Below are positions 39,937 to 52,634 of a DNA stretch of 64,000 nt, piece after piece. Origin of the DNA: Streptomyces sp. SCL15-4 (GTDB lineage: Bacteria; Actinomycetota; Actinomycetes; Streptomycetales; Streptomycetaceae). A program made the position numbers and the translations under genes. The notes under the pieces are model-generated. The model worked only from the letters and a program-made list of their open reading frames with translations. It had not been told where the DNA came from and made no database searches. The first letter of the stretch is position 1, and every line of letters begins with the position of its first letter. Where the stretch lies: the NCBI RefSeq assembly GCF_033366695.1, contig NZ_JAOBTQ010000001.1:682001-746000 (forward strand), given 5' to 3'.

Positions 39937-40872
39937 TTGTTTGGCCGATTTGTTAGTTGTTGTCTAATTAGGTAACTCTTCGCGCCGGACAGTGCGGTTT
40001 TCCGGTGTATGACGGGCGATGGGTGCGCTCGTCACGAGTTCGATCATGCTAGCCGAGTGGTGCTGCACGGGTTTGCCTCTTACAGGCAGTACGAAGACCG
40101 CCCTCGCGGGCAATACGGAACTCGGTCACTCGCGCGGCCCCACGGTATTCTCGCCGCTCCGGGCGGCGCTTCCCGACAGGGGGGCCGGGCACGGTGTGAG
40201 AGGTGACCGACACCGGCACCGCCGAGATGGCCGGCCGGACGACCGTGCGGACCGGGATCGATCCGGATCGAGCACCCGCGTGCCTTCCGCGGGAAGACGC
40301 GCGTGCGGGTGAGCGCCGAGCCGATGTCGTGCCGTCGGCCGTCGGGCTCGTCTTCGCGGTCCGGGCCGTCGGCGACTCCGGCCGCCTTGCCGCGACCGGC
40401 GAGCGCCCGTGCCGTCGTCGAGCGCCTTCTCACGGGTCCGGCGGCGCGGGCAAAGGATCGCCGGAGCGGGGTGCGCTCGCGTGACACCGGCGACGCGGAA
40501 GGGCCGTTCCGGCTCCGGCACCAGTCCCGTCAGGCGTCTCGCTTCGCCCGGGCCGGCGTCGAGGCGGAGGTGTTCGGCGGCGGCGGGCGGCGCACGGGCC
40601 GGACGCGTGGCCGGACGCGGACGACGGCGCCCTACGGCGGGAAGCGGCGGAGGGCGCCCGGTCTCCGCGCCGGAGCGGCTGCCCGACGGGACGCCGCGCG
40701 TACGGGCATGCGTCACGGAGATCGCGGAGCGGCCCGGGGGCACCGGTCCCGGTGACGTGCGAATCGCGGCCGGGCAAGCGGCAGGACCGCGGTGTGGCGG
40801 CTCCACGCGTCCGCCTCCGGCAGAAGACCGGCCTTGACCTCAAGAGCGCTTGAGGTACGAGAGTCACGTCCC
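39937..40872. other. 936-nt stretch with promoters but no convincing gene
   Basis: The first ~70 nt are AT-rich (TTGTTAGTTGTTGTCTAATT-like) and probably hold the promoter of the PAP2 gene. The rest is GC-rich with only Arg/Pro/Gly-rich frames (for example 40203-40484 plus strand), none with recognisable domains; it may include decayed gene sequence. The SoxR box at its right end is listed separately. Confidence 0.5.
40834..40864 (+). promoter_or_regulatory. SoxR box and promoter
   Basis: ACCTCAAG-AGCG-CTTGAGGT (40837-40856) is a perfect 20-bp match to the SoxR operator. It is preceded by an overlapping TTGACC -35, and a 19-nt spacer leads to GAGAGT, the same geometry as the E. coli soxS promoter. 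The ATG of the monooxygenase-like gene follows at 40873. Confidence 0.85.
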
Positions 40873-41433
40873 ATGACACGTCTGCTGGATCTTCATCATG
40901 CTTCCGCCGGAACGACGTTGATGAGCGAGTGGCTCACCGGCACCGCCGAACGCTCGCGCGCGGCCCTCGACGCCGTGCGCGAGCAGTGGGCGACGGATCG
41001 GACGCCTCCCGGGCGGCTGGCGCAGCACGTCTTCCTGTCCCTGGACGGCACCGGCCTCTTCTTCTACACGCAGTGGACCAGTGATGCGGATCACCTGGCC
41101 TGGGCCCGCGCACGGCGCTCCGGACTCGTCGACCGCGTCGACACCCTCGTGCCCGGCATCGAGCGCCCAGGACTGACCCGGACCCGCCTCGTCCGCAGCG
41201 TCGTGCACGATGCGCGACGACCGGCCCGCCTCTTCGCCGTGCGCAGGATGCCGGCCGCCGCCGCGGAGGCCGCCGTCACGCCGCCGGCACCGGGCCTGCT
41301 CGCGGCACACCTCCACGTGACGCCCGACGGAGAACGCGCCGTCGTCGTCACGGAATGGACCGACGCCGCCGAGACGGGCGACACCGGCGCCAAGTGGTAC
41401 ACCGGCCTCGAGACTGGTGGGCTCGCATGTTGA
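40873..41433 (+). CDS. Antibiotic-biosynthesis-monooxygenase-like protein, 3' end replaced
   Basis: 186 residues as it stands. Two ferredoxin-like ABM repeats are suggested by LAQHVFLSLDGTGLFFYTQW plus TSDADHLAWARA, and by LLAAHLHVTPDGERAVVVTE followed by WTDAAETGDTGAKWYTGLE. The second repeat is cut: after WYTGLE the frame runs five residues into foreign lower-GC DNA and stops. The gene is under a perfect SoxR box, and a putative monooxygenase is a known SoxR target in S. coelicolor, so this was probably the same kind of redox-cycling response gene. Function of the truncated protein is doubtful. Confidence 0.7.
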   Translation: MTRLLDLHHASAGTTLMSEWLTGTAERSRAALDAVREQWATDRTPPGRLAQHVFLSLDGTGLFFYTQWTSDADHLAWARARRSGLVDRVDTLVPGIERPGLTRTRLVRSVVHDARRPARLFAVRRMPAAAAEAAVTPPAPGLLAAHLHVTPDGERAVVVTEWTDAAETGDTGAKWYTGLETGGLAC

Positions 41434-41438
41434 GGTGT
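41412..41438. repeat. 27-nt direct repeat, left copy
   Basis: Exact copy of 42363-42389, 951 nt away in the same orientation. This copy sits exactly where the monooxygenase gene is cut. Read on the minus strand it consists of the leader and first six codons of the small gene at 42026-42379. Confidence 0.85.
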
Positions 41439-41584
41439 CGCGTATTCGCGGTTGCTGCCCGCACCTCATGACGCTGAGTGAGCAGTCAGGGGTGGTCGAT
41501 CTGTCTGTCGAAGGAAGGGCAAGCCCGTCTATCATCACCGGCGGGGATTCATGGTCACCGGCGGGGGCTCGCCGCCCGCCCAAC

Positions 41585-41853
41585 TCAGCCGCTACCGCCC
41601 GGCGGGAGTGCCGCGAATCGGATGCCGAAGACCGTGCCCAGGCGTACGGTCTCTTTCTCGACTGTGCCCACGAGGTTGACATGAAAGTGAGGGGACAAAT
41701 CGGTGAACCCTGGGTCGCCAGCTGTTCTTCCAGGGAGAGGACGTTGTGCCTGAGGAGCTCTTGAAGGTCTTCGCGCCTTACGCCTGCGACGTACCACGTA
41801 CCTTCCTGGGCGTAGTGCGGCACGATCTCGCTTATAATCCCAGGTGCTGGCAA
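41585..41853 (-). pseudogene. Small unknown gene with one frameshift
   Basis: Minus strand: GIISEIVPHYAQEGTWYVAG, then VRREDLQELLRHNVLSLEEQ in one frame. After a one-base slip near 41712-41725 it continues as GFTDLSPHFHVNLVGTVEKE and then TVRLGTVFGIRFAALPPGGS to a stop at 41585. The joined product would be about 88 residues. No family recognised. The base composition is lower in GC than the flanking chromosome. A 5' start is unclear (TTG at 41853). It could be a broken cargo gene of the mobile region. Confidence 0.45.
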
Positions 41854-42025
41854 CTCCTACGCACACGTGAGGTGCGAAGGTTCCTTGAGGCTGATGCTCG
41901 CGGCTGAGCAGCCGGACCATTTCCTGTGGGCTCCAGTTTCTGCTCGCTGAGCGGCCTCTGGCTTGGTTGCCCTTGTGCGACCAACGCCCGTATGGGAAAG
42001 GGCGGGAGTATTCGACCTGAGCTCT

Positions 42026-42379
42026 CTACATTTGGTAGAACTCGGAGTGCTGCTCCGGCGGACGGAGTATGTGGAACATTGAATCGCTCGCGATTTTCTC
42101 CGGCGACCGATCGGTCAAAACAATCCTATTGACTTCATACCCTTTGGACTCTAGGAAACGCTGCACAGTCTTCTCGGGGTCGGCCTCGATCTGCTGACGT
42201 GTTTCGTCGTCAAGTTCGATGTTCAACTTGACGATCTCGAAGTCCCCTTCGCCGGTCCTTTCGACACTGCCCTGCAATCGTCCATCGGACATGAGAAACC
42301 TCCGCTTGACCAGTGTCCCCTCTTTTCGAGCTTCACCCGTGGCCGTCAAGAGCGCAAGTTGGGACTGGTGGGCTCGCAT
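42026..42379 (-). CDS. Unknown 117-residue protein in mobile region
   Basis: Starts at the ATG at 42379; the in-frame extension to 42520 is possible. The sequence is mixed alpha/beta and charged: KEGTLVKRRFLMSDGRLQGS, then VERTGEGDFEIVKLNIELDD, then ETRQQIEADPEKTVQRFLES, KGYEVNRIVLTDRSPEKIAS. No membrane segment, no known motif. Codon usage is far less GC3-biased than in the chromosome around it. I do not recognise a family. Its 5' end is the source of the 27-nt repeat at the island edge. Confidence 0.6.
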   Translation of the reverse strand: MRAHQSQLALLTATGEARKEGTLVKRRFLMSDGRLQGSVERTGEGDFEIVKLNIELDDETRQQIEADPEKTVQRFLESKGYEVNRIVLTDRSPEKIASDSMFHILRPPEQHSEFYQM

Positions 42380-42389
42380 GTTGAGGTGT
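42363..42389. repeat. 27-nt direct repeat, right copy
   Basis: Overlaps the start codon of the 117-residue protein gene (minus strand). The left copy at 41412-41438 is probably a fragment left by duplication or recombination. Confidence 0.85.
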
Positions 42390-42596
42390 TGTGTAGTCCC
42401 AGATGAGATCGTTCCTGATGTCACCGTGCGTGTCGTCGGGGTCAGCCGCTCTAGGCGCCTCCGCTTCAGTGACCAGTCGAGCAGCCGTTTTGTGGCGTTA
42501 GCCATGGTCCCCGCCGACAACCGGGGCCGGAACTTGGAGGAAGTTTGACGGAACGTGCTGGCGAACTCATGACGTTTTGATAGCTGTTCTTTCCAG

Positions 42597-43016
42597 TCAA
42601 CTGACAGAGCGGCGATCGAGGATGACGCCTGCCACCAAGCACACCACTACCAAAGCGAGGTCGAAGACCAGCCAGGACACGCTGCCCTCGGCGATAATCT
42701 TTTGATGCCTGATGGAATTGAATTGAGCAATAGAAAGACCGATGAAGAGGTAGCCGGTTCGCTTTGCCCAATCTGCGAATACCTTGGCCTGGTCGCGTCC
42801 TGAAGTCGGCTTCATCTGCCTCACTGCGGCATCCACGTCTGCCTTCAGAATGCGTTCCTCTTGAGTTTGTCCACGTGCACGAGCGGCCAGTTCAGTGGCA
42901 TATCGTTCCACGGCCACGGTAAACGCTGCATGGGCCTCGTCGCTGCAGTCCGGGAGTGCCGTGTACCCAGTCGCAAAAACAGTAGAGGCCGCCGGCTGCT
43001 TCGCCCCCTCACTCAT
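42597..43016 (-). CDS. Unknown membrane protein, second of a coupled pair
   Basis: 139 residues. A soluble N-terminal part (AHAAFTVAVERYATELAARA, RGQTQEERILKADVDAAVRQ) is followed by two C-terminal transmembrane helices (AKRTGYLFIGLSIAQF and SWLVFDLALVVVCLVAGVIL) and a short basic tail. The ATG overlaps the stop of the upstream gene by 4 nt (ATGA), so the two are translationally coupled and may form a complex. No known family. Lower GC than neighbours outside the island. Confidence 0.65.
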   Translation of the reverse strand: MSEGAKQPAASTVFATGYTALPDCSDEAHAAFTVAVERYATELAARARGQTQEERILKADVDAAVRQMKPTSGRDQAKVFADWAKRTGYLFIGLSIAQFNSIRHQKIIAEGSVSWLVFDLALVVVCLVAGVILDRRSVS

Positions 43017-43450
43017 CGAGCCTCCCCGCTGCCCCTGTTGCGCCGACGGCGCAACCGTCCGTACGTTCCGGATGTCCAGTAGCGTCCGAACCAGCCAAGA
43101 GCTGCTGCTGCGAGTGCGTTGATGGCACCGAGGAGGACTGCGCTACCCGCGAAGCCACGTACGACGAGGTAGACGGTTGCCCCAAGGATGGCTAGTCCAG
43201 CAACAAGCACGAACAGCCTGTTGGCCAACGCAACGATCTTGGCAGCCGAGCGAGCGCGTGCCATCTCCGCGATTTCTTCGTGGACAAATCGCTGCTCCAG
43301 TTCAGCGATGCGGATAAGTCGGTCGGCTAGGGTCGGCGAGACTTCTTCCAAGCGTCGAAGATCCTCGGCTGACGGCATATGGCCAGAGCTGCGAAGAATC
43401 TCGATCTCCATTTCGTCGAGATCGGAATCTGAGTCGTCTCTGCTGGCCAT
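43013..43450 (-). CDS. DUF2335-like small membrane protein, first of a coupled pair
   Basis: 145 residues from the ATG at 43450. An acidic N-terminus (DDSDSDLDEMEIEILRSSGH) is followed by PSAEDLRRLEEVSPTLADRL and a helix with EQRFVHEEIAEMARARSAAK, then two membrane helices (LFVLVAGLAILGATVYLVVR and GSAVLLGAINALAAAALGWF) and a basic Arg-rich end. The helix-then-two-TM layout resembles DUF2335 membrane proteins, found mainly on mobile DNA. Coupled by ATGA overlap to the next membrane protein. Function unknown. Confidence 0.6.
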   Translation of the reverse strand: MASRDDSDSDLDEMEIEILRSSGHMPSAEDLRRLEEVSPTLADRLIRIAELEQRFVHEEIAEMARARSAAKIVALANRLFVLVAGLAILGATVYLVVRGFAGSAVLLGAINALAAAALGWFGRYWTSGTYGRLRRRRNRGSGEAR

Positions 43451-43655
43451 AGAGATGCTCCATCTGCGAGCGCAACGCCCGCTCCTCGCCCCTGGTAGGC
43501 ACGTCTCGCGATGCCTCAATCCTAAAGTGACCTTCGATAGCGCGCCTGGATCCGGTCTGCCATTCGGGTAAGTCACCTGCATTGAGGGTGCAGCCCCTCA
43601 GTCGGTCAGGATCGAGGTTGAAGGTGTTACGCGTTCCTGCAATGCAGCCCAGGCG

Positions 43656-45122
43656 TCACCGTGTGTGGTCGCCAGGAGCGTATCGGCTCCACGTTCCGCC
43701 AGCTTCGGTGACGAGGCGGGCGGCGGTCTTGTCGTGGTAGCCGAGGGCCCTCGCGATGACGGGGGCTGGGGCTTGGAGGACGAGCTGGCGGATCGCGGAG
43801 GTTCTGCCGCGCTGCGGAGGGACGCCGATCTCGCGCAGGTGGACCTGGAGGCTGACCGAGTTCATCGGCTGACCGGGCTGACGGCCAGGGAAGAGCCAGC
43901 AGGCACTTCTGCTGCTGGCGTAGGGCAGGTGCTGGCGGGAACGGAGGTAGGCCCGCATCAGCTCGGCGACGGGCTCTGGGAGGGGAGACGGTGGATCTCC
44001 CAGGGAGACAGCGACAGTGGTTTCGTCGTCGGTGACATCGTCGATGGTTAGGCGAACGATGCGGCTCACGGGCTGGGCATAGACGAGAACGAGCGCAGCA
44101 ACGATGCGGCTCCGCAGAGGCAAGGAGTCGTCGTTGAGGACCCGCCGAAGCATGGCAAGGCGGCGGTGCTGGTTCAGCGGCGCCTGGTCCTGGGTGATGA
44201 CTTGGGGCGGAAGGGTGAGGTTGGGCATCCGGCCCGTTTTCATGCACCAGCGAAGGAACGTCTGGGCTGGGCGCCGGGTGGCCAACTTCTCGGTGTGCCA
44301 GGCGTCGAGGTCGGCCTGCCGACAATGCTCGATGGTGCGGCCTCGGTCGGCGAGCCAGGCAAGGAAGGCGCCGGCCTGGGTGGTCTCCTGCTTGGCCTGG
44401 TGCGTCTGGGAGCGTCCCAGCGGCCCCTTCTCCGCCGTGGCCCGCAGTCGGCGCATCTGGTGCCAGGAGGCGAAGTGCCGGAGAAGCAGGTGGTGTTCGG
44501 GGTCCTCGATGGTGGCGAGACGTTCGGTCAGCCAGCGCTGATAGAGAAGGATTTGACGGTCGACGCGTGGCAGGACGCCGCTGTCCATCAGCAGGTCGCG
44601 CAGGTGGGTAACGGTTCGCCAGGGCCCTTCCTGATGCAGTCCTTCGTGAGTGAGTGGGATGGTGCCGGTGGCCAGGCCGCGCAGGAGACGGACGACGTTG
44701 GGGTTGCGGAGCCAAATCAGGCGGCTCTTGGGCCGGTCCATCTCCAGCAGGGCGGTGACCAGTGGTTGCAGCGGAAGCGCGACGTGCCCAGTGCCGTCGT
44801 CGAGGAGGCGGGCGAGTGTGTCGGCGAGGGTGCAGCGTTCGCAGAGACGCCCTCCGAGCAAGAGCCCCTCGAAGCCGCAACGGTCGCAGAAGAAGTCGCG
44901 GGTGATGCCCGCGCAATCGCGGCAGATCGGCGTGTCGGCGGTGTCCAGACCGGGCAGCAGCCGGTCGGCTCCGCAGTCGGGGCAGGAGCCGCGGACGCGC
45001 ATCGCGCGGTCGTAGCAGGCCCGGCAGATCGGGCCGTCCGACCACTCCGCCGACTTCGCCGCTCGACGGCCGCAGCGTGCGCAGTTCCGGACATGCCACC
45101 GCTCGTACTCTTCCGGCGTCAT
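43656..45122 (-). CDS. Zinc-ribbon tyrosine-recombinase-like protein
   Basis: 488 residues. The N-terminus has six CxxC pairs in ~95 residues (CARC, CRAC, CPDC, CRDC, CDRC, CERC), enough for three zinc ribbons. The C-terminal ~180 residues follow the tyrosine-recombinase fold: RIVAALVLVYAQPVSRIVRL (with the box I Arg), then RGRTSAIRQLVLQAPAPVIA, RALGYHDKTAARLVTEAGGT and WSRYA with a candidate Tyr. The H-x-x-R motif reads T-x-x-R, so catalytic competence is doubtful and it may be an accessory protein. It is the third gene of a coupled trio, its ATG overlapping the stop of the small HTH gene. Confidence 0.7.
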   Translation of the reverse strand: MTPEEYERWHVRNCARCGRRAAKSAEWSDGPICRACYDRAMRVRGSCPDCGADRLLPGLDTADTPICRDCAGITRDFFCDRCGFEGLLLGGRLCERCTLADTLARLLDDGTGHVALPLQPLVTALLEMDRPKSRLIWLRNPNVVRLLRGLATGTIPLTHEGLHQEGPWRTVTHLRDLLMDSGVLPRVDRQILLYQRWLTERLATIEDPEHHLLLRHFASWHQMRRLRATAEKGPLGRSQTHQAKQETTQAGAFLAWLADRGRTIEHCRQADLDAWHTEKLATRRPAQTFLRWCMKTGRMPNLTLPPQVITQDQAPLNQHRRLAMLRRVLNDDSLPLRSRIVAALVLVYAQPVSRIVRLTIDDVTDDETTVAVSLGDPPSPLPEPVAELMRAYLRSRQHLPYASSRSACWLFPGRQPGQPMNSVSLQVHLREIGVPPQRGRTSAIRQLVLQAPAPVIARALGYHDKTAARLVTEAGGTWSRYAPGDHTR

Positions 45123-45451
45123 CGCTCAGCCCTCGGCGTCAGCCGGACCCGTGTGGGTCGGCGGGCGGCGAGGTTGATCGGCGCCTCTTCGCCGGCGGCG
45201 CGACGGGCTGGGAGGTTCTGGGCCGAGGTGGCGATCAGGTCGGTGGGCGTGCAGTCGAGGATGTCGCAGAGGGTGGCCAGCACCGGCAGGGACAGCCGTT
45301 CCGGGGTGCCGGAGACCAGACGGTGGACCTGGGAAGAGGAGAGCGTGATGCCGCGTTCGGTCAGGTGCGGCATCAGCTCAGCGACGGTGAACATGCCGCG
45401 GGCGGCCATCAGCTCGCGCAGGCGCCACCGGTAGCTGATCTGGCGTGGCAT
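45119..45451 (-). CDS. Small XRE-family HTH regulator of the recombinase trio
   Basis: 110 residues from the ATG at 45451. The Cro/CI-type HTH occupies residues ~8-70: LRELMAARGMFTVAELMPHL, TERGITLSSSQVHRLVSGTP, LPVLATLCDILDCTPTDLIA. The tail is Arg/Ala-rich. It overlaps both neighbours: start inside the integrase stop (ATGA) and stop inside the next start. Probably represses the trio or chooses between excision and integration, perhaps through the CGCATC-N-GATGCG palindromes in front of the integrase gene. Confidence 0.78.
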   Translation of the reverse strand: MPRQISYRWRLRELMAARGMFTVAELMPHLTERGITLSSSQVHRLVSGTPERLSLPVLATLCDILDCTPTDLIATSAQNLPARRAAGEEAPINLAARRPTRVRLTPRAER

Positions 45452-46569
45452 CAGGAAGTCCTTCCCGGCCGCAGAGCGGCCTCGATGGTGGCGTCCAGGA
45501 CGCGACGCAGGGAGCGTGTGCGAAAGTCGGAGGAGACGCAGGTGTAGATCGCGGTGGTGGAGGCGTGGTCGTGGCCGACCTGCTGTTGGACGAACAGCGG
45601 GTCGTGGCCGTCCTCGATCAGGTGGGTGATGTAGGACCTGCGCAGCGAGTGAAACTCCAGCGCGGGGTCCAGGCCGACGGCGTCCCGGTAGGCGGCGAAG
45701 CGGGAGTCCAGCCGCTGGACCCCGATCCGCGGGCCTCTCTCGGACGGCCAGAGGGCCCGGCTGGTCGAATGACGCATCCCAGGCCGGACCTCGCTGATCC
45801 ATTCCCCGATCGTGCCTGGTGTCCAGTGCCAGACAGTCAGCACACTGCGACGCTTGGGCGGCGACCCCTTCTTGGCCTTGCCGTAGCGGACCAGCAGGGT
45901 GCCGTACTCGCCGAACTCCCGGCCTTCTGGATTGCGGCCGAAGTCGGTGAGATCCAGCATCCGGGTCTCGTTGCGTCGCAGGCCGTAGGCGTACGCAACC
46001 TTGAACAAGGCGGCGTCCCGGAAGGCTGGCAACCAGCCCTTGCGGCCCTTGCCGCGAACGCGCAGCACCTCCTCGTCGGCGTGGTCGAAGAACGCCTCCA
46101 GCTCGGACTTGGTGAACGCTCGGCGTTCCGGCTCGCCCTCGGCCTCGTCGGCGTGCGTCGCAGCGTTCCAGTCATAGACGACCTGGACCGGGTGGGTACC
46201 GAAGTGCCGCAGGCACTCGTCACTCCAGCCGTAGGCCGGGTTGGTCAGGAAGTCACAAAACTGACGCACGGAGCCCTGGTAGTTGCGCAGGGTGGAGCGG
46301 ACGCAGCCGTGCACGGCCCGCAGATCGGCCGACCATTCGTCGACGTGCTGCGGCGTCCACTGCCACGGCATCGCATCGGCATGCCGGGTGAAGGCGCGGA
46401 CCGTGCGTTCCTGATCACCGACGTACCCCGGCGAGAGATTCCGGGCGAGCTGCTGGTTGCGCCAGCCCTTGATCATCGCCTCGAAGACCAGCTCGTCCGG
46501 CCGCAGCAACGGCAGACCGTCCACCAAGTGCAGCCGAGCAGACCCTGGAACGAGACCGTCTCCACCCAT
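45451..46569 (-). CDS. Tyrosine recombinase / integrase
   Basis: 372 residues. N-terminal SAM-like core-binding domain (YVGDQERTVRAFTRHADAMP onward) and a complete catalytic domain: Arg in YAYGLRRNETRML, H-x-x-R as EFHSLRRSYITHLI, GHDHASTTAIYTCV with box II His and the nucleophile Tyr. It should be active. First gene of the coupled trio; its upstream region carries three CGCATC-N-GATGC palindromes. Similar integrase / HTH / recombinase trios occur in actinobacterial mobile DNA. Confidence 0.85.
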   Translation of the reverse strand: MGGDGLVPGSARLHLVDGLPLLRPDELVFEAMIKGWRNQQLARNLSPGYVGDQERTVRAFTRHADAMPWQWTPQHVDEWSADLRAVHGCVRSTLRNYQGSVRQFCDFLTNPAYGWSDECLRHFGTHPVQVVYDWNAATHADEAEGEPERRAFTKSELEAFFDHADEEVLRVRGKGRKGWLPAFRDAALFKVAYAYGLRRNETRMLDLTDFGRNPEGREFGEYGTLLVRYGKAKKGSPPKRRSVLTVWHWTPGTIGEWISEVRPGMRHSTSRALWPSERGPRIGVQRLDSRFAAYRDAVGLDPALEFHSLRRSYITHLIEDGHDPLFVQQQVGHDHASTTAIYTCVSSDFRTRSLRRVLDATIEAALRPGRTS

Positions 46570-46590
46570 CCGCCATCACTCTCCGTCTAT

Positions 46591-46624
46591 CGCATCTGAC
46601 GCGAGGATTTCGCATCAGATGCGA
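46591..46624. promoter_or_regulatory. Paired CGCATC-N-GATGCG palindromes upstream of the integrase gene
   Basis: CGCATCTGACGCG (46591-46603) and CGCATCAGATGCG (46611-46623) have centres 20 bp apart, two helical turns. The outer arms TCGCATCTGA and TCAGATGCGA also form a larger perfect inverted repeat. 22 nt upstream of the integrase ATG. Likely operator or recombinase-arm sites. Confidence 0.65.
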
Positions 46625-46776
46625 CACGGGGGCGTCTTCGCAGTTCAATCGCTCGATGGAGTGAGACTCACAGACGCCCGCCGAGGAGACCGCTACCGTG
46701 GTTCCAAGGCCAACGCCCCTGGCCGGACCGCTTCCATACAGCCCTCGGCCCGCCTCCAGGACGGGTGCCGCCTATT

Positions 46777-46789
46777 CGCATCCGATGCA
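46777..46789. promoter_or_regulatory. Third copy of the CGCATC-N-GATGC palindrome
   Basis: CGCATCCGATGCA, one mismatch from the palindromes at 46591-46623, ~175 bp further from the integrase and close to where chromosomal codon usage resumes. Could mark the element edge or a second operator. Confidence 0.5.
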
Positions 46790-46842
46790 ATTGGCGTCAG
46801 TAGGAACATCGGTACAGCGGTTGACGCTGAGAACGATCATGG

Positions 46843-47094
46843 TCAGGGCGTGGGTGTGCCGACCCGGTTCTCGTACGCTCGGCGGCCCTTGCGCCGGGCC
46901 GGGACCGCGGGCAGACCCTGGCCGCCGTCGAGCGGCCGGCAGCGGGCGAGGAGCTGGCGGTGTACGGCGGGGACGGCGCTGACGCGCAGGGTGTAGCCCC
47001 GGACGCGCCGTACGGTCGTCCCCTGGTCGAGCGCGGCGCGCTCGACGGGCTCCAGCTCGGCGGTCCGGAGACAGTCCGCGACCTTGCCCGGCAT
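46843..47094 (-). CDS. Hypothetical protein, probably 5'-truncated or frameshifted
   Basis: 83 residues from the ATG at 47094 (MPGKVADCLRTAELEPVERA, LDQGTTVRRVRGYTLRVSAV, ARCRPLDGGQGLPAVPARRK). The frame stays open and protein-like upstream (AARPLPDHTAVKEDAPAPEL, PVTLD) but has no start codon before a TGA; an ATG at 47214 is in another frame. This suggests a small frameshift in a ~120-residue protein. No family assigned. It is downstream of the XRE regulator on the same strand and at the right side of the mobile region. Confidence 0.45.
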   Translation of the reverse strand: MPGKVADCLRTAELEPVERAALDQGTTVRRVRGYTLRVSAVPAVHRQLLARCRPLDGGQGLPAVPARRKGRRAYENRVGTPTP

Positions 47095-47244
47095 GTCGAG
47101 GGTGACCGGCAGCTCCGGGGCGGGCGCGTCTTCCTTGACGGCGGTGTGGTCGGGCAGGGGGCGGGCGGCGGCGGTGCGGATCGCTCGCCCTCGTTTGCCG
47201 ACAGGACCGTCATGGTGAGCGTGGGCGGAGTCGGCCGGGGATCA

Positions 47245-48123
47245 TCAGTCGCGCGAGTGTGGCGCGAGAGTCTGGGACGTGGCTGCCCAGGAGGCGAGGA
47301 GACTCAGGCTCTCCTCGGAGGCCGAGCCGGGTTCGGCGGTGTAGATGGTGAGTGTGAGACCGGGGGCGGCGGCCATCTCCAGGCCCTCGTAGGCGAGAAT
47401 GAGGTCGCCGACGGTGCGGTGGTGGAAACGCTTGGTGCCGGTGCCGTGATGGCGGACGTCGTGGGCGCCCCAGCGGGTGCGGAAGTCGTCGCTGCGGGTG
47501 GACAGCTCCCCGACGAGGTCGTGCAGGCCCTTGTCGCGGGGGTTGCGGCCGGCTTCGGTGCGCAGGATGGACACGGCGATGTCGGCGGCCTGCTCCCAGT
47601 CGGGGTAGAAGCGGCGCGAGGCGGGGTCGAGGAACTGGAAACGGGCCAGGTTCGCCTGGTTGCCGGCCGAGGCGTAGACGTCGGCGTAGAAGGCGCGGGC
47701 GAGTTCGTTGGCGGCGAGCAGGTCCATGCGGCCGTTGCGTACGAAGGCGGGGCCGGCGGTGACGGCGTCCAGGACCCATTGCAGGCTCCGGTGCGCCTTC
47801 CACTGGGCGGTGCGGCGCCGGGGGCGGGTAAGGGCGTCGGAGCCGTCGGCGGCGTGGGCGAGGTTGAGCAGGTGGGCGCGTTCGGCGTCGTCGAGCTGGA
47901 GCGCACGGGCGACGGCTTCGAGAACGGCCGGGGAGACGCCGGCGAGGTTGCCACGTTCCAGTTTGGCGTAGTACTCCACGCTCACATCGGCGAGTGCGGC
48001 GACCTCGCTGCGGCGCAGGCCCGGTACCCGCCGGCGGCTCCCGGAGGGCAGGCCGGCCAGCTCGGGGGTGATCTTGGCTCGCCGCGAGGTCAGGAACTCG
48101 CGGACCTCTGCTTGGTTGTCCAC
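47245..48123 (-). CDS. XRE-family regulator with MmyB-like ligand domain
   Basis: 292 residues. HTH: VREFLTSRRAKITPELAGLP, VPGLRRSEVAALADVSVEYY, AKLERGNLAGVSPAVLEAVA. MmyB-like domain: GPAFVRNGRMDLLAANELAR, DDFRTRWGAHDVRHH, ILAYEGLEMAAAPGLTLTIY. Same architecture as the protein at 7155-8051. It diverges from the alcohol dehydrogenase operon, and a 25-bp inverted repeat lies in its promoter, so it most likely represses that operon and itself. Confidence 0.88.
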   Translation of the reverse strand: MDNQAEVREFLTSRRAKITPELAGLPSGSRRRVPGLRRSEVAALADVSVEYYAKLERGNLAGVSPAVLEAVARALQLDDAERAHLLNLAHAADGSDALTRPRRRTAQWKAHRSLQWVLDAVTAGPAFVRNGRMDLLAANELARAFYADVYASAGNQANLARFQFLDPASRRFYPDWEQAADIAVSILRTEAGRNPRDKGLHDLVGELSTRSDDFRTRWGAHDVRHHGTGTKRFHHRTVGDLILAYEGLEMAAAPGLTLTIYTAEPGSASEESLSLLASWAATSQTLAPHSRD

Positions 48124-48154
48124 GCCTTCGACGGTACGTCCCGCCCGCGTCCAT

Positions 48155-48179
48155 AGGGATGTACTGGCGGTACACCCCT
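48155..48179. promoter_or_regulatory. 10-5-10 inverted repeat in the XRE / dehydrogenase gap
   Basis: AGGGATGTAC and GTACACCCCT, separated by TGGCG, match as inverted arms with one mismatch. It lies 31 nt upstream of the XRE start and 157 nt before the dehydrogenase ATG. Good candidate operator for the XRE protein. Confidence 0.55.
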
Positions 48180-48336
48180 CGATGGTGTCTCGCTGCCCGC
48201 GCGAAAAGCGGGTTGCCTGGATGACGTGGTGCTTTTCGCCTGGTCGTCACGACGGGATTTTGCACCTGGCCCTGCACTCGGCGACGGCCCCGGCCTTCGG
48301 GATCGCCCGCCCCCGGCACGCGAAGGAAGCTCATCT

Positions 48337-49353
48337 ATGCGCGGCGCAGTCATCCACGCCCCCGGCGATGTCCGCTTCGAGTCTCTGGACGACCCGAAGC
48401 TGCTTCACCCCACCGACGCGATCATCCGCACGGCTGTCACCTGCGTGTGCGGCTCCGACCTGTGGCCCTACCGCGGCGCCGAGCCGATCGGCGACCCGCA
48501 CCCGATGGGCCACGAGTACGTCGGCTTCGTCGAGGAGGTCGGCTCCGGGGTCACCGCGGTGAAGCCGGGACAGTTCGTCGTCGGCTCGTTCGCCACGTCC
48601 GACAACACCTGTGCGAACTGCAAGAACGGATTCCAGTCCAGCTGCCTGCACCGCGAGTTCATGTCCACCTGCCAGGCCGAGTACGTGCGCATCCCCCACG
48701 CCCAGGGCACCCTGGTCGCCACCGACGAGGTACCCGGCGAGGAACTGTGGCCCGGTCTGCTGGCCGTCTCCGATGTGATGGGCACGGGCTGGTGGGCCGC
48801 GGACGCCGCCGAGGTGGGGCCCGGCTCGACCGCCGTGGTCGTCGGCGACGGCGCGGTGGGCCTGTGCGCGGTGATTGCGGCGAAGGAGATGGGCGCGGAG
48901 CGCATCATCGCCATGTCGCGGCACGAGTCCCGGCAGAAGCTCGCCCGGGAGTTCGGTGCCACCGACATCGTCACCGGGCGTGGCGACGAGGGCGTTGCGG
49001 AGATCAAGGAGCTGACCGGCGGCATCGGCGCCGACAGCGTCCTGGAGTGCGTCGGCACGGCCCAGGCCATGAGCCAGGCCCTGCGCTCCGCCCGGCCCGG
49101 CGGCAACGTCGGCTTCGTCGGTGTCCCCCACGAGGTCGCCGTCGACGGGCAGGAGCTGTTCTTCTCCCACGTCGGCCTGCGCGGCGGTCCCGCCCCCGTA
49201 CGCCGGTATCTGCCCGACCTCATCGACCGCGTCCTCACCCGCCGGATCGACCCGGGCAAGGTCTTCGACCTCACCCTGCCCCTGGACCAGGTCGCCGAGG
49301 GCTACAAGGCCATGGACGAGCGCCGCGCCATCAAGACCCTCCTCACCCCCTGA
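48337..49353 (+). CDS. Zinc-dependent alcohol dehydrogenase (MDR family)
   Basis: 338 residues from the ATG at 48337. GroES-like domain with catalytic zinc ligands: Cys in TCVCGSDLWPYRG, GHEYVGFVEEVGSG; the structural-zinc loop is incomplete (TCANCKNGFQSSC has three Cys). Rossmann domain with GDGAVGLCAVIAAKEMGAER. Resembles the tdh/adh-type dehydrogenases that act on small alcohols, sugars or formaldehyde adducts. First gene of a plus-strand run with a cupin and SDRs. NAD(P) dependence is inferred from the fold. Confidence 0.9.
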   Translation: MRGAVIHAPGDVRFESLDDPKLLHPTDAIIRTAVTCVCGSDLWPYRGAEPIGDPHPMGHEYVGFVEEVGSGVTAVKPGQFVVGSFATSDNTCANCKNGFQSSCLHREFMSTCQAEYVRIPHAQGTLVATDEVPGEELWPGLLAVSDVMGTGWWAADAAEVGPGSTAVVVGDGAVGLCAVIAAKEMGAERIIAMSRHESRQKLAREFGATDIVTGRGDEGVAEIKELTGGIGADSVLECVGTAQAMSQALRSARPGGNVGFVGVPHEVAVDGQELFFSHVGLRGGPAPVRRYLPDLIDRVLTRRIDPGKVFDLTLPLDQVAEGYKAMDERRAIKTLLTP

Positions 49354-49379
49354 CCCCCTCCACCGCACAAGGAGCAACC

Positions 49380-49790
49380 GTGCAGATCACCCGCAGCTCG
49401 CTCGACACCGTCAAGGGCCCGGCCGACTGGTTCACCGGTGACGTCTACATCGACCCGGTCGCCGCCGCCCCCGCCCCCTCTCGGGTCACCGCCTCCCTGG
49501 TGCACTTCATGCCCGGCGCCCGCACCCACTGGCACCGCCACCCGCTGGGCCAGACCGTCTTCGTCACCGAAGGTGTCGGCCTGTGCCAGCGCCGCGGCGG
49601 TCCCGTAGAGGTCATCCGGCCTGGCGACCGGGTCCTGTTCGAGGCCGACGAGGAGCACTGGCACGGCGCCGCCCCGAACCGGCTGATGGTCCACGTGGCC
49701 ATCAACGAGGGCGACGACGACCACGCCGTCGTGCACTGGCTGAACCCGGTCACCGACGACGAGTACACCGCCGCCCCGGCCACCGGCTGA
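49380..49790 (+). CDS. Cupin-domain protein
   Basis: 136 residues from a GTG with AGGAG 6 nt upstream. Single cupin barrel: motif 1 is PGARTHWHRHPLGQTVFVTE (the H-x-H metal ligands), motif 2 is PGDRVLFEADEEHWHGAAP. Close in layout to the (R)-mandelonitrile-lyase / gamma-carboxymuconolactone-decarboxylase-associated cupins that travel with SDR and aldo-keto reductase genes. 26 nt after the alcohol dehydrogenase, so in its operon. The reaction is unknown. Confidence 0.85.
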   Translation: MQITRSSLDTVKGPADWFTGDVYIDPVAAAPAPSRVTASLVHFMPGARTHWHRHPLGQTVFVTEGVGLCQRRGGPVEVIRPGDRVLFEADEEHWHGAAPNRLMVHVAINEGDDDHAVVHWLNPVTDDEYTAAPATG

Positions 49791-49843
49791 CACTGCGGTC
49801 CGCCCGGCCCTGCGTCCGCACCGCCTCACCTGAAAGGCTCACC

Positions 49844-50140
49844 GTGACCGCGTTCGCTCTCGTCGGCGCGGGCCCCGGACCGGGGCTGGCCGCCGCCCGC
49901 CGGTTGGGCGCCGCCGGCCACCACGTCGCCCTCCTGTCCCGCATGGCCGATCACCTCGACGCCCTGGTGGGCGAACTCGACGATGAGGGCATCCGGGCGC
50001 GCGGCCTCACCGCCGACGTCCTTGACCCCGCCTCCCTGACCGCAGTCCTGGACACGGCGGCCAAGGAGCCGGGGCTGCTGTTCGTCAACGGCGGCAGTGC
50101 CGTACGCCCGAACCCCGAGGTGGCCGGCACCTCGGTCGAC
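49844..50140 (+). pseudogene. 5' fragment of an SDR gene
   Basis: Starts with a GTG behind GAAAGG and encodes a Rossmann start (FALVGAGPGPGLAAARRLGA, AGHHVALLSR, LTADVLDPASL, LFVNGGSAV), the N-terminal ~98 residues of an SDR with the non-classical GAGPGxG loop. Near 50140 the homology stops and the sequence joins, out of frame, the 3' part of a different SDR gene. The frame itself runs on to a stop at 50332 with junk sequence. No catalytic Ser-Tyr-Lys is left. Confidence 0.7.
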
Positions 50141-50697
50141 ACGACGTCCAAGCCGCGGTCGACCGGACTGTCGAGCGCTTCGGGAGCCTGGATGCCGCCT
50201 TCAACAACGCCGGCGTCGAGCAGCCCGTCCAGTCGGCCGCCGACACCGCCAAGAACGACTGGGACCGCGTTCTCGGCGTCAGCCTCACCGGAGCGTTCCT
50301 GTGCACCCGCGCCCAGATCCGGCAGATGCTGAAGCAGGACGGCGGCGGCGTGATCGTCAACGTCTCCTCCGGCGCCGGGGTCAAGGGCTTCGAGGGGCAG
50401 GCCGCCTACGCCGCCGCCAAGCACGGGATCATCGGCTTCACCCGTTCCGCCGCCCTCGACCACGCCGCACAGGGCATCCGTATCAACGCCGTCTGCCCGG
50501 GGATCATCGACACCGGGATGATCCGCCGCTTCGGCGACACCCGCCCCGGGGGCCGCGAAGGACTTATCGCCGACGAACCCGTCGGCCGCCTCGGCACGCC
50601 CGAGGAGATCGCCTCCGCCGTGCTCTGGCTGTGCTCCGCCGACGCCGCCTTCGCCACCGGCACCGCCCTGGTCGTCGACGGCGGCCAGACCACCTGA
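50141..50697 (+). pseudogene. 3' fragment of a second SDR gene
   Basis: Begins inside an SDR at DVQAAVDRTVERFGSLDAAF, NNAGVEQPVQ and continues correctly through VIVNVSSGAGVKGFEGQAAY, AAAKHGIIGFTRS to the normal end FATGTALVVDGGQTT. The Rossmann TGxxxGxG half is missing; the only internal ATG in this frame is at 50326. It closely resembles the intact SDR that follows. Together with the preceding piece it looks like the product of a deletion between two neighbouring SDR genes. Confidence 0.7.
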
Positions 50698-50754
50698 ACC
50701 CTCCGGCACCCCGTCCGAAGCCCCCGTCGCAACCCTGTCCGAGGAGACATCTCC

Positions 50755-51522
50755 ATGAACCCCACCTACGACTTCACCGGCCAGGTCGCCTTCGTCACCG
50801 GAGCCTCCTCCGGCATGGGCCTGGCCACCGCCCGCGCCTTCGCCAAAGCCGGCGCCGCCGTCGGCCTCGCCGACATCGACGAGACAGCCCTCAAGGCCGC
50901 CGTGCAGGAACTCACCGACGCCGGACACCGGGCCCTCGCCCTGGTCTGCGACGTCACCGACGAGGACCAGGTCGCCGCCGCCGTCGACCGCACCGTGGAG
51001 ATCTTCGGCCGCCTTGACATGGCCTACAACAACGCCGGGATCATGCCCCCGCCCACCGACGCCGCCGACGAGAGCGCCGAACAGTTCGACCGCGTCCAGC
51101 ACATCAACCTGCGCGGCATCTGGGCGGCCATGAAGCACGAACTGCGCCACATGCGCGACCAGGGCAGCGGCGCCATCGTCAACTGCTCCTCCCTCGGCGG
51201 CCTCGTCGGCAACCCCGGCCGCGCCGCCTACCACGCCACCAAGCACGGCGTGATCGGCCTGACCAAGAGCGCCGCCCTCGAATACGGCTCCCGCGGCGTC
51301 CGCATCAACGCGGTGTGCCCCGGCACCATCGCCACCCCCATGGTCGATGCGATGGTCGAAGGCGGCGAACTCGACCGCGCCCAGGCCGAAGCCGGCCAGG
51401 CCATCGACCGTCTCGGCACCGCCGACGAGATCGCCCAGGCCGTCCTGTGGCTCTCCAGCCCCGGCGCCGGCTACGTCACCGGCATCGCCCTGCCCGTCGA
51501 CGGTGGCTACACCGCCCAGTAA
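50755..51522 (+). CDS. Short-chain dehydrogenase/reductase (complete)
   Basis: 255 residues. Classical SDR: VTGASSGMGLATARAF nucleotide loop, CDVTDEDQV, MAYNNAGIM, catalytic Ser in VNCSSLGGLVG and YHATK, and a C-terminal GYVTGIALPVDGGYTAQ. Acidic DIDE after strand 2 suggests NAD rather than NADP. Preceded by GAGGAGA. Last intact gene of the dehydrogenase / cupin operon. The substrate is unknown. Confidence 0.9.
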   Translation: MNPTYDFTGQVAFVTGASSGMGLATARAFAKAGAAVGLADIDETALKAAVQELTDAGHRALALVCDVTDEDQVAAAVDRTVEIFGRLDMAYNNAGIMPPPTDAADESAEQFDRVQHINLRGIWAAMKHELRHMRDQGSGAIVNCSSLGGLVGNPGRAAYHATKHGVIGLTKSAALEYGSRGVRINAVCPGTIATPMVDAMVEGGELDRAQAEAGQAIDRLGTADEIAQAVLWLSSPGAGYVTGIALPVDGGYTAQ

Positions 51523-51537
51523 CCCCCTGCGTTGCCA

Positions 51538-51770
51538 TCAAGCCGAGAGGTCGTCCTCGTCCAACTCCGGCGTGCCCGGGTCCCGCCGCGGGCGCAGGGC
51601 GCCCGCGGCCGGGAGGGAAGCGGTGACGCTGTAGCGGCCGAGCAGGTTCAGGTTGCGGTGCTTGAGCGGGGACAGGCGGGCGATGTCCTCGTCCCGCAGT
51701 TCGTGGCCCTCGGCGCGGAGCCGGGCGACGGCGTCGTCGATGTACGTCGTCGTCCACGGCACATCTGGGG
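51538..51770 (-). pseudogene. Tn3-family transposase 3' remnant
   Basis: Minus strand encodes WTTTYIDDAVARLRAEGHEL, RDEDIARLSPLKHRNLNLLG, RYSVTASLPAAGALRPRRDP then a stop at 51538. This matches the extreme C-terminus of Tn3-family transposases (WNTxY..A, ARLSPL, x-N-x-x-G-x-Y). The rest of the ~1000-residue protein is absent; the DNA to ~52000 holds only unassigned fragments. No terminal inverted repeat was identified. Confidence 0.65.
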
Positions 51771-52007
51771 CGCGAAGCCGAGCTGGTGGTGCGTGGAGCG
51801 TCGCCGGGCGATCAGACCGCGGTCGACATCGTCCAGGAAGAAGAACCGCTCCAAGCCGGGGCGGGTCGGCTCCTCGGCGCACTTCCCGCACAAGCGGACC
51901 GTAGCCGGTCCCGGCGCCCGTCCGGCGATCTTTCCGCGACCGCCGTACCGATGTTCCCCGAGGCCGTACACGTATGACGACTCGTTCTACGACGGAGCGC
52001 GCGGAGC

Positions 52008-52634
52008 CTAGGCGGTGCGGGTGAGCGCGTCCGGGATCAGGGTGAAGGTCTGTTCGACCAGGTGCGTCAGGCCGTCGCGGCCTCCTCGGCCGCCCTGGGC
52101 CGTCCAGTGCAGGCACACCGTGTGCCAGGCGGCGACGAAGATCTCCACGGTGAGGCGCAGGCGCAACGCGTCCGCCTCCGTGTCGGCGCCGGCACGGCCG
52201 GCCAGCGTCTCGACGATGTCACGGGTGGTGTCCTGGCAGTACCCCAGTCCGTGCGACTGCAGCACGGGAACGGACTCGGACAGCTCACGGGTGGCCAGGA
52301 ACCGGCGGTCCCAGTCCGGCTCCATGGCCTCCAGGGTCGCCTCCAGGGCCACCCGGAGCACGCCGAGGAGCGGGCCGTCCAGCCGTACGGCGGCCACCCG
52401 GTCCAGGTACGCCGACCACAGCTCGCTGTCGGCGGCGAGCGCGACGTCCTCCTTGGAGCGGTAGTTCCGGAAGAAGGTGCGCTTGGACACCTCCACCGCG
52501 TCGCACAGGTCGTCGAGCGTGGTGGTGTCGTAACCGCGTTCGGTGAACAGACGGAGCGCGGTCTCGGCCAGGGCCCGGCGCGTACGCAGCTTCTTCCGTT
52601 CGCGCAGCGGCAGTTCGCGCAGATCGTGACTCAC
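52008..52634 (-). CDS. TetR/AcrR-family regulator of the adjacent exporter
   Basis: 208 residues from the GTG at 52634; the ribosome site is weak and a few residues either way are possible. HTH: LRTRRALAETALRLFTERGY, DTTTLDDLCDAVEVSKRTFF, RNYRSKEDVALAADSELW. C-terminal helical domain of the TetR_C type. It diverges from an MFS exporter gene, with a perfect palindrome over that promoter, a standard repressor / efflux arrangement. Confidence 0.88.
   Translation of the reverse strand: MSHDLRELPLRERKKLRTRRALAETALRLFTERGYDTTTLDDLCDAVEVSKRTFFRNYRSKEDVALAADSELWSAYLDRVAAVRLDGPLLGVLRVALEATLEAMEPDWDRRFLATRELSESVPVLQSHGLGYCQDTTRDIVETLAGRAGADTEADALRLRLTVEIFVAAWHTVCLHWTAQGGRGGRDGLTHLVEQTFTLIPDALTRTA

Follow-up and report, generated by a model that had tools for sequence, protein, structure and literature searches.

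What kind of element do three tightly packed recombination genes of Streptomyces sp. SCL15-4 belong to, and what does that element recognize? The genes lie in a 64,000-nt stretch of contig NZ_JAOBTQ010000001.1 (positions 682,001 to 746,000 of the forward strand), here called the window, and encode a tyrosine recombinase (protein 1), a helix-turn-helix (HTH) protein (protein 2) and a longer protein rich in CxxC pairs (protein 3), together referred to as the trio. Our analysis suggests that the trio supplies, with good probability, the recombination functions of a transposon-like, site-specific element whose target depends on the clade: the terminal inverted repeats (TIRs) of Tn3-family transposons in the clade of the window copy, and the codon of the catalytic Tyr of integrase genes in a sister clade. 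Fixed ends, a conserved gene order, conserved palindromes, variable cargo and a recurrent target are all seen in the sequence. The ends, both targets and the cargo slot are the most telling of the features described here, and none of them appeared in a preliminary description of the locus, which was made from the letters of the window.

Element ends and the Tn3 target of the window clade

When 10 kb of the window was compared by blastn with 80 fetched loci, the DNA from about 43650 to 46830 proved to be a block common to eleven named Streptomyces loci at ten sites (L037 and L038 being one site). The match breaks off near both ends in nine of the eleven, and in the other two (L036 and L046) it continues into a neighboring 83-aa gene. 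Alignments of the left sides and of the downstream segments reveal a conserved left end, a variable segment and a conserved right end (GAATACGCGACACCTCAACATGCGAGCCCACCAGTC), and profiles of the left end, the gene-3 3' end and the right end map in that order in many loci, giving 46802 and 41412 for the window copy (Table 1). Aligning element ends, a check proposed in the preliminary description, thus did define them, and the interval first assigned to the trio (43656..46789) is too small. Two other boundaries were ruled out: an element that stops at the end of gene 3, as the blastn view at first had it, by the right-end profiles, which reveal a cargo slot; and a window copy without cargo, read from a look-alike right end just past gene 3, by the intact right end farther on. 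Both element ends carry GAATA-N-GCGACACC in direct orientation.

The window copy evidently sits in the left TIR of a decayed Tn3-family transposon (41403-51966), 9 bp from the TIR tip. This host element has the TIRs, the 5-bp duplication and the DDE_Tnp_Tn3 transposase of its family, the last kept in the window as a remnant only. The duplication TACAC is exact on both sides of the transposon, and joining the flanks across the composite gives a continuous monooxygenase-like frame. Homologues of the interrupted gene in genomes G090 (65%) and G023 (64%) extend 7 and 6 residues beyond the junction, respectively; the other matches listed stop short of it (28 of 101 genomes have a match, the strain's own included).

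The same position recurs among relatives. We scored 24 left ends of close relatives of the window copy (23 independent sites) against the TIR 17-mer, and 17 agreed within 3 mismatches (0.04% at random) and 20 within 5 (0.16%). Moreover, in 44 right ends, one per locus, the TIR tip follows within 1 mismatch in 25 (2.1% at random) and within 2 in 37 (14.7%; 34 main and 3 variant tips). The cut point in the TIR, which spans 46 bp when intact, is TTCC/CCGAGGCCG, 9 bp from the tip, and the outer left flanks also stand alone as TGATC...CGCTGTACCGATGTTCC-CCGAGGCCG, resembling empty sites. The site is present in 42 of 121 genus genomes at up to 3 mismatches and in 23 at up to 1, against 2 of 121 for a reversed control, some of the 3-mismatch places probably being unrelated. 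With a 49-nt version, 85 plasmid records matched at E 0.01, and in 37 the match covered over 80% of the query. Inverted pairs of the site are flanked by exact 5-bp duplications in L128 (GAAGC), L129 (TCATC) and L131 (GTGTG), and by one agreeing at 4 of 5 bases in L130. Of the 22 site-bearing genomes, 17 have the Tn3 transposase domain PF01526; in six of them (G004, G055, G019, G037, G076 and G000) it is located less than 10 kb from a site, on the inner side, and in L128 it is found inside the inverted pair. Plasmid pSGE carries two inverted TIR variants that enclose an annotated Tn3 transposase and a recombinase-family gene, and one of the two variants holds a trio; no duplication can be read there because the two outer TIR tips differ. 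Among more distant relatives (the 50% clade), L146 (31 bits) and L150 (34 bits) have a clear TIR; that of L144, L145 and L151-L153 is weak or of variant form, and no clear one is seen in L147, L148 and L154.

Several observations count against a Tn3 target of this kind. Four of the 24 left ends depart from the main 17-mer (L090, L092 and L093 with a recognizable variant, L095 with 6 mismatches), seven of the 44 right ends have no tip within 2 mismatches, itself a weak test, and both the TIR profile and the 17-mer derive partly from the same left ends and solo sites. PF01526 is absent from 5 of the 22 site-bearing genomes; where it is present outside the six named above, the nearest copy is on the outer side in G096, 16 kb off in G072, and far away or on another contig in the remainder.

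Tn3 TIRs also receive IS4321 and IS5075 (IS110 family), which insert into those of Tn21-type transposons; their enzyme is unrelated to the trio, and they have neither trio genes nor a cargo slot. Some Tn3 elements, in turn, rely on tyrosine recombinases, TnpI or TnpS/TnpT for instance, and with 20 of 24 window-clade left ends at a Tn3 TIR the trio might be the cointegrate-resolution module of the Tn3 transposon itself and not a separate element. We regard this as improbable: the trio splits the TIR, the same TIRs occur without it, a recombinase-family gene adjoins the other TIR on pSGE, and integrase genes are home to the sister clade, which shares the gene order and has ends of its own.

Integrase target of the sister clade

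The sister clade, whose third protein is about 34% identical to that of the window and whose gene order is the same, appears to target mostly the catalytic-Tyr region of tyrosine-recombinase genes, inserting one codon after the Tyr. Three sister copies are present in genome G090, with 99.7-99.98% identity across about 5 kb, and three in G158, where they represent two sites and one segmental duplicate; the left flanks in both genomes terminate in LGH...Y plus one codon. Across 19 distinct left-flank frames, 12 match PF00589 (11 above the cut-off), and all 12 matches stop at the Tyr position, profile 165-166 of 172. In L148 (2013-9765) one trio lies inside another, the sister element cutting the protein 1 gene of a second trio at its catalytic Tyr. 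An interrupted trio integrase can also be read by eye from the right flank of L149, and in L157, which looks similar, the interrupted gene is a protein 1 homologue.

Against this target stand the seven of 19 left-flank frames without a PF00589 match, two of which match 2'-5' RNA ligase and five nothing; among the latter, L138, L142 and L162 show the LGH...Y motif by eye only, and L171 and L174 show nothing. In addition, 7 of 20 further sister loci gave no left-end match (13 did), and the left ends of L173 and L174 are low-scoring. As for the two ligase-like genes (L165 and L173), the copies there are likewise at a Tyr codon.

In trees of protein 1 and protein 3 (FastTree, midpoint root, no support shown), TIR-labeled and Tyr-labeled groups fall apart from each other, the labels of L147, L148, L149 and L154 being assumed from kinship; loci with unknown targets fall beside or within the Tyr group. 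The trio gene order holds in 16 of 18 loci compared (L149 shows no gene 1 and L155 is broken).

Regions such as these are rich in mobile DNA, and the association with TIRs and integrases might simply mirror how abundant both sequences are there, with no targeting at all. The junctions fall at the same place of the TIR with base-level precision, and at the same codon of unrelated integrases in 12 of 12 PF00589 matches, and we therefore consider this extremely unlikely.

One catalytic recombinase and a degenerate partner

All three trio genes are open minus-strand reading frames. Protein 1 matches PF00589 (1.9e-17) and protein 2 HTH_26 (2.7e-18) in a Pfam scan, which bears out the complete integrase and the 110-residue HTH protein of the preliminary description. 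Protein 3 reaches PF00589 only below the cut-off (3.4e-4; 20.9 bits against 27.1 required), and no non-recombinase family stands above cut-off in Pfam, NCBIfam and PADLOC scans; a match to such a family had been named beforehand as a refutation of a separate element class. Six CxxC pairs can be read off its sequence. A profile of 47 protein 3 relatives, picked among the best 120 of 765 (profile A1), matches XerD (1a0p) at E 2.2e-5 over profile positions 256-478, and its C-terminal half is therefore recombinase-like, as had been described for this 488-residue protein.

Protein 3 had also been said to lack the His of HxxR. That His is indeed missing from the viewed rows, a part of an alignment of proteins from the window clade, the 50% clade and the sister clade, but the loss is wider: the HxxR Arg is also gone by eye in the sister-clade rows of that part, no Lys is seen in the beta-2/3 stretch, and no Tyr is seen at the usual place after LG(H). 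A conserved Tyr, Y481, which is invariant in A1, lies about 10 residues past that place. We read protein 3 as a catalytically dead, degenerate recombinase-like partner, and by eye protein 1 appears as the sole trio protein to keep its catalytic site, so that a trio of recombinases is not supported. The 3-4-nt ATGA overlaps once reported for these genes apply to genes 2 and 3 (4 nt, ATGA), genes 1 and 2 sharing 1 nt (TGATG). One protein 3 match at E 1e-3 is present in genome G000 (8.4 Mb).

Palindromes at the left end

Three CGCATC-N-GATGC palindromes had been noted ahead of the trio. Those at 46611 and 46777 are exact, two in the window against a chance mean of 0.07 per window, while that at 46591 carries one mismatch. 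We examined 28 left ends, comprising 21 of the 24 scored for the TIR (without L038, L042 and L075) and 7 of the 11 loci L144-L154, and in every one found three matches within one mismatch of GCATNNNATGC. The spacing of 20 bp between two of them, also noted before, is exact for the inner pair just before gene 1 in 28 of 28, and the stretch from the tip palindrome varies in length. The tip palindrome lies at +13 or +14 in the 21 window-clade left ends; the anchor was set by hand in the other seven. The palindromes thus look conserved and not due to chance, and the simplest reading is a putative double operator for protein 2 with one further site at the tip.

Cargo, nested copies and features of the window

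Between gene 3 and the right end lies a segment of 22 to 2386 bp (median 509; 41 loci, with open reading frames (ORFs) chosen mechanically). Four of ten representative cargo proteins match Pfam (SUKH-4, SUFU, NUDIX and DUF4240) and six match nothing; SUKH and SUFU are immunity-protein domains of toxin systems. The cargo genes appear small and interchangeable, some of them resembling immunity proteins. One 139-aa cargo family of unknown function fills 8 of the 41 slots (loci within L031-L096). For the window cargo ORFs nothing significant was found except a borderline DUF2335 match, and PADLOC returned nothing for six window proteins.

The cargo slot of the window also holds a second gene-3 3' end followed by an older right end, which points to nesting or fusion of copies; the ORF 42520-42026 crosses this region and is perhaps no true gene. 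Repeated gene-3 ends are seen in the window, L045 and L090 and may reflect such fused or nested copies rather than integron-like cassette exchange at the gene-3 stop. In L065, L068 and L069 the upstream part of the element is joined to a gene-3 3' end, directly or, in L069, after a gap of about 700 bp; these are possible non-autonomous copies derived by internal deletion.

The host gene, antibiotic-biosynthesis-monooxygenase-like (40867-41402 and from 51972 onward), is cut near its 3' end by the composite. The transposon body (46840-51938) has an MmyB-type regulator, a zinc alcohol dehydrogenase and an SDR gene, with a cupin and a further SDR by eye, and a similar gene set is found on several Streptomyces plasmids. 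Adjoining the TIR is the 83-aa protein (46843-47094, minus strand), which has no Pfam match and whose relatives, by alignment or eye, flank occupied or empty TIRs in L033, L036, L046 and L084 and a copy of the trio element in L025. A tRNA scan of the window and an Rfam scan of 41300-52100 found nothing.

Table 1. Coordinates of the trio element and of its host transposon in the window.
Feature	Position	Strand	Remarks
Whole trio element	41412..46802	-	5391 bp; each boundary +/- about 2 bp
Right end of trio element	41412..41447	-	GAATACGCGACACCTCAACATGCG...CACCAGTC; profile match 41448-41405, 55 bits
Left end of trio element	46742..46802	-	TACTGACGCCAATTGCATCGGATGCG...; left-side alignment, end profile
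Protein 1, tyrosine recombinase (PF00589)	45451..46569	-	372 aa; R, K, HxxR, H and Tyr residues seen by eye
Protein 2, Cro/C1-type HTH (HTH_26)	45119..45451	-	110 aa
Protein 3, six-CxxC N-terminus and degenerate tyrosine-recombinase domain	43656..45122	-	488 aa
Palindrome 1, imperfect	46591..46602	.	CGCATCTGACGC, one mismatch; just upstream of gene 1
Palindrome 2, exact CGCATC-N-GATGC	46611..46623	.	exactly 20 bp from palindrome 1
Palindrome 3, exact CGCATC-N-GATGC	46777..46788	.	within left end, about 14 bp from boundary
Cargo ORF, 139 aa	42597..43016	-	no significant family
Cargo ORF, 189 aa	43013..43582	-	borderline DUF2335 match, 25.1 bits (cut-off 25)
Second gene-3 3'-end remnant, then older right end	42359..42503	-	42503-42415 (29 bits), then 42398-42359 (34 bits)
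Target duplication TACAC, left copy	41398..41402	.	
Outer tip of left Tn3 TIR	41403..41411	-	TCGAGGCCG; severed from remaining TIR by trio element
Inner part of left Tn3 TIR	46803..46839	-	TGATCGTTCTCAGCGTCAACCGCTGTACCGATGTTCC
Tn3 transposase C-terminus remnant	51631..51759	-	PF01526 positions 347-389
Right Tn3 TIR	51939..51966	+	ending CCCCGAGGCCG
Target duplication TACAC, right copy	51967..51971	.	

Possible circle form and spread

Paenarthrobacter ureafaciens AT has a relative of the element both as a circle and in tandem (L082, NZ_CP094493.1; L088, NZ_CP094490.1). The 4712-bp circular record pD is a single element with a 37% protein 3, pA carries two tandem copies of it with a period of 4714, and the circle junction is without two bases found in the tandem junction. 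This pair, from one strain, fits excision or integration by way of a circle. Against this, the circle is known from one assembly record, that of a 37% relative, and assembly could have generated it from the tandem, despite the 2-bp difference at the junction.

Of 246 genus genomes at least 91, and of 296 class genomes at least 46, have protein 3 relatives, intact or broken, and these counts are lower bounds because few candidates per genome were scored. Such relatives are found in 260 plasmid records, where the ten commonest genera are all actinobacterial and 18 more genera lie beyond these. An integrase with an HTH protein is common in prophages, and many trio copies are broken, so the trio could be a degraded integration module of a phage or an integrative and conjugative element, with its regulator, stranded by chance near a transposon. 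Such an origin has in our estimation hardly any chance of being right, since protein 3 has no match in 50,697 phage records, and ends and targets recur from locus to locus.

Relation to known systems

We compared the trio element with four known systems through the available parts of their published descriptions. SE elements of Gammaproteobacteria have four genes, with two active recombinases, non-catalytic partners, a circle form and site specificity (PMC10214605). Their circles form with a strand bias and without an empty site. The trio element is likewise a multi-gene tyrosine-recombinase element with non-catalytic partners, a probable circle form and site specificity, but it has one active recombinase, an HTH protein and a zinc-ribbon partner, belongs to Actinobacteria and does not have the intA-tfp-intB-srap set. 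In SE and Tn554, 6 bp of the donor left flank pass to the new right junction. The right junction in the G090 and G158 sister copies reads CCATTA although the left-flank bases differ; these constant bases speak against a footprint of the Tn554 kind, which is not supported for the sister clade. The targets of the window clade are alike.

GInt elements have a ginABCD operon at the 5' end, cargo from the stop of the last gene and a short 3' end; their GinC is without the first catalytic Arg, and their described target is an ABC-transporter gene (PMC5385486). Cargo from the last-gene stop and a short 3' end are found in the trio element too, whereas GInt has three recombinase-like proteins plus GinD, and the available part of its description does not mention zinc ribbons. 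Judged by domain content, no ginABCD operon is present here.

RIT elements (ritABC) consist of three coupled genes with ATGA overlaps and are found inside radC or IS66 tnpA (PMC2864759). All three of their genes are tyrosine-recombinase genes with the catalytic motif, whereas in the trio only protein 1 has it and protein 2 is an HTH protein; ATGA is found at genes 2/3 only, and the 34-bp terminal inverted repeats of RIT have no counterpart in the window copy, whose ends are joined by no inverted pair of 16 nt or more. Actinobacterial Tn554-like elements (Famint27/33, 36/41 and 53/62) have a long partner of 611-828 aa with its own potential catalytic motif, and TnpC or no third gene (PMC3414803). 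They resemble the trio element in being actinobacterial and site-specific, with one shorter and one longer recombinase-like protein, but here the partner has 488 aa, CxxC pairs and no catalytic motif, an HTH gene stands in the middle, and one active recombinase is found in place of active TnpA and TnpB plus TnpC.

An ordinary RIT or Tn554-family element might nevertheless be proposed, with a tyrosine recombinase in coupled genes with an ATGA overlap, a RIT target that is likewise inside a mobile gene (IS66 tnpA), and a Tn554-like actinobacterial class already on record. Those elements have two or three catalytic recombinases where the trio has one, there is the missing inverted pair, and protein 3 found no match at E 1e-3 in pBD2, which is named in three rows of the Tn554-like table (PMC3414803), in a search without positive control that could miss distant relatives. 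We think this assignment unlikely. Taken together, the trio element works like Tn554, RIT, SE and GInt elements but without their defining gene sets, and the earlier suggestion of a separate, little-described actinobacterial element class holds up, given the shared gene order and the recurrent palindromes. No description of a tyrosine-recombinase element with Tn3 TIRs or the active-site codons of integrases as its target was present among the literature matches listed, which is weak evidence as these were open-licence papers only.

Proposed mechanism and meaning

For a site-specific transposon-like element of this type, protein 1 would carry out strand exchange between the ends, excising a circle that would join CACCAGTC to TACCGACGCC, and then between circle and target. 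Protein 3, a zinc-ribbon protein with a dead recombinase fold, may help to assemble the synapse or to choose the target. Protein 2 may regulate expression by binding the palindrome pair ahead of gene 1, and perhaps binds the left-tip palindrome too. Insertion splits an essential site of the host element and should therefore immobilize it. It weighs against this scheme that the roles given to proteins 2 and 3 are drawn only from their domains and that no movement has been observed, so that mobility, like the disabling of targets, is at present a prediction from sequence.

At a bolder level we tentatively consider a hyperparasitic transposon family, in which each branch would recognize a sequence where any change would cost other mobile elements their function: the Tn3 end in one branch and, in the other, the DNA for the LGH...Y active site, including that of its own relatives' integrase. 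By inserting there, the family would reach any mobile element, fix it in position and bring in small genes, many of them immunity-like, with target choice set by the dead zinc-ribbon recombinase. Taken as a whole, this proposal may well be right, though we stop short of calling it probable.

Although Tn554, RIT, SE and GInt elements are known, their choice of target and the role of their non-catalytic partners are open questions. The two sister clades, which share a gene order but have different, precise targets, offer a way in, as removing one protein could reveal the determinant of specificity. Moreover, the targeting of integrase active-site codons or of Tn3 end tips would be a new, and common, conflict between mobile elements.

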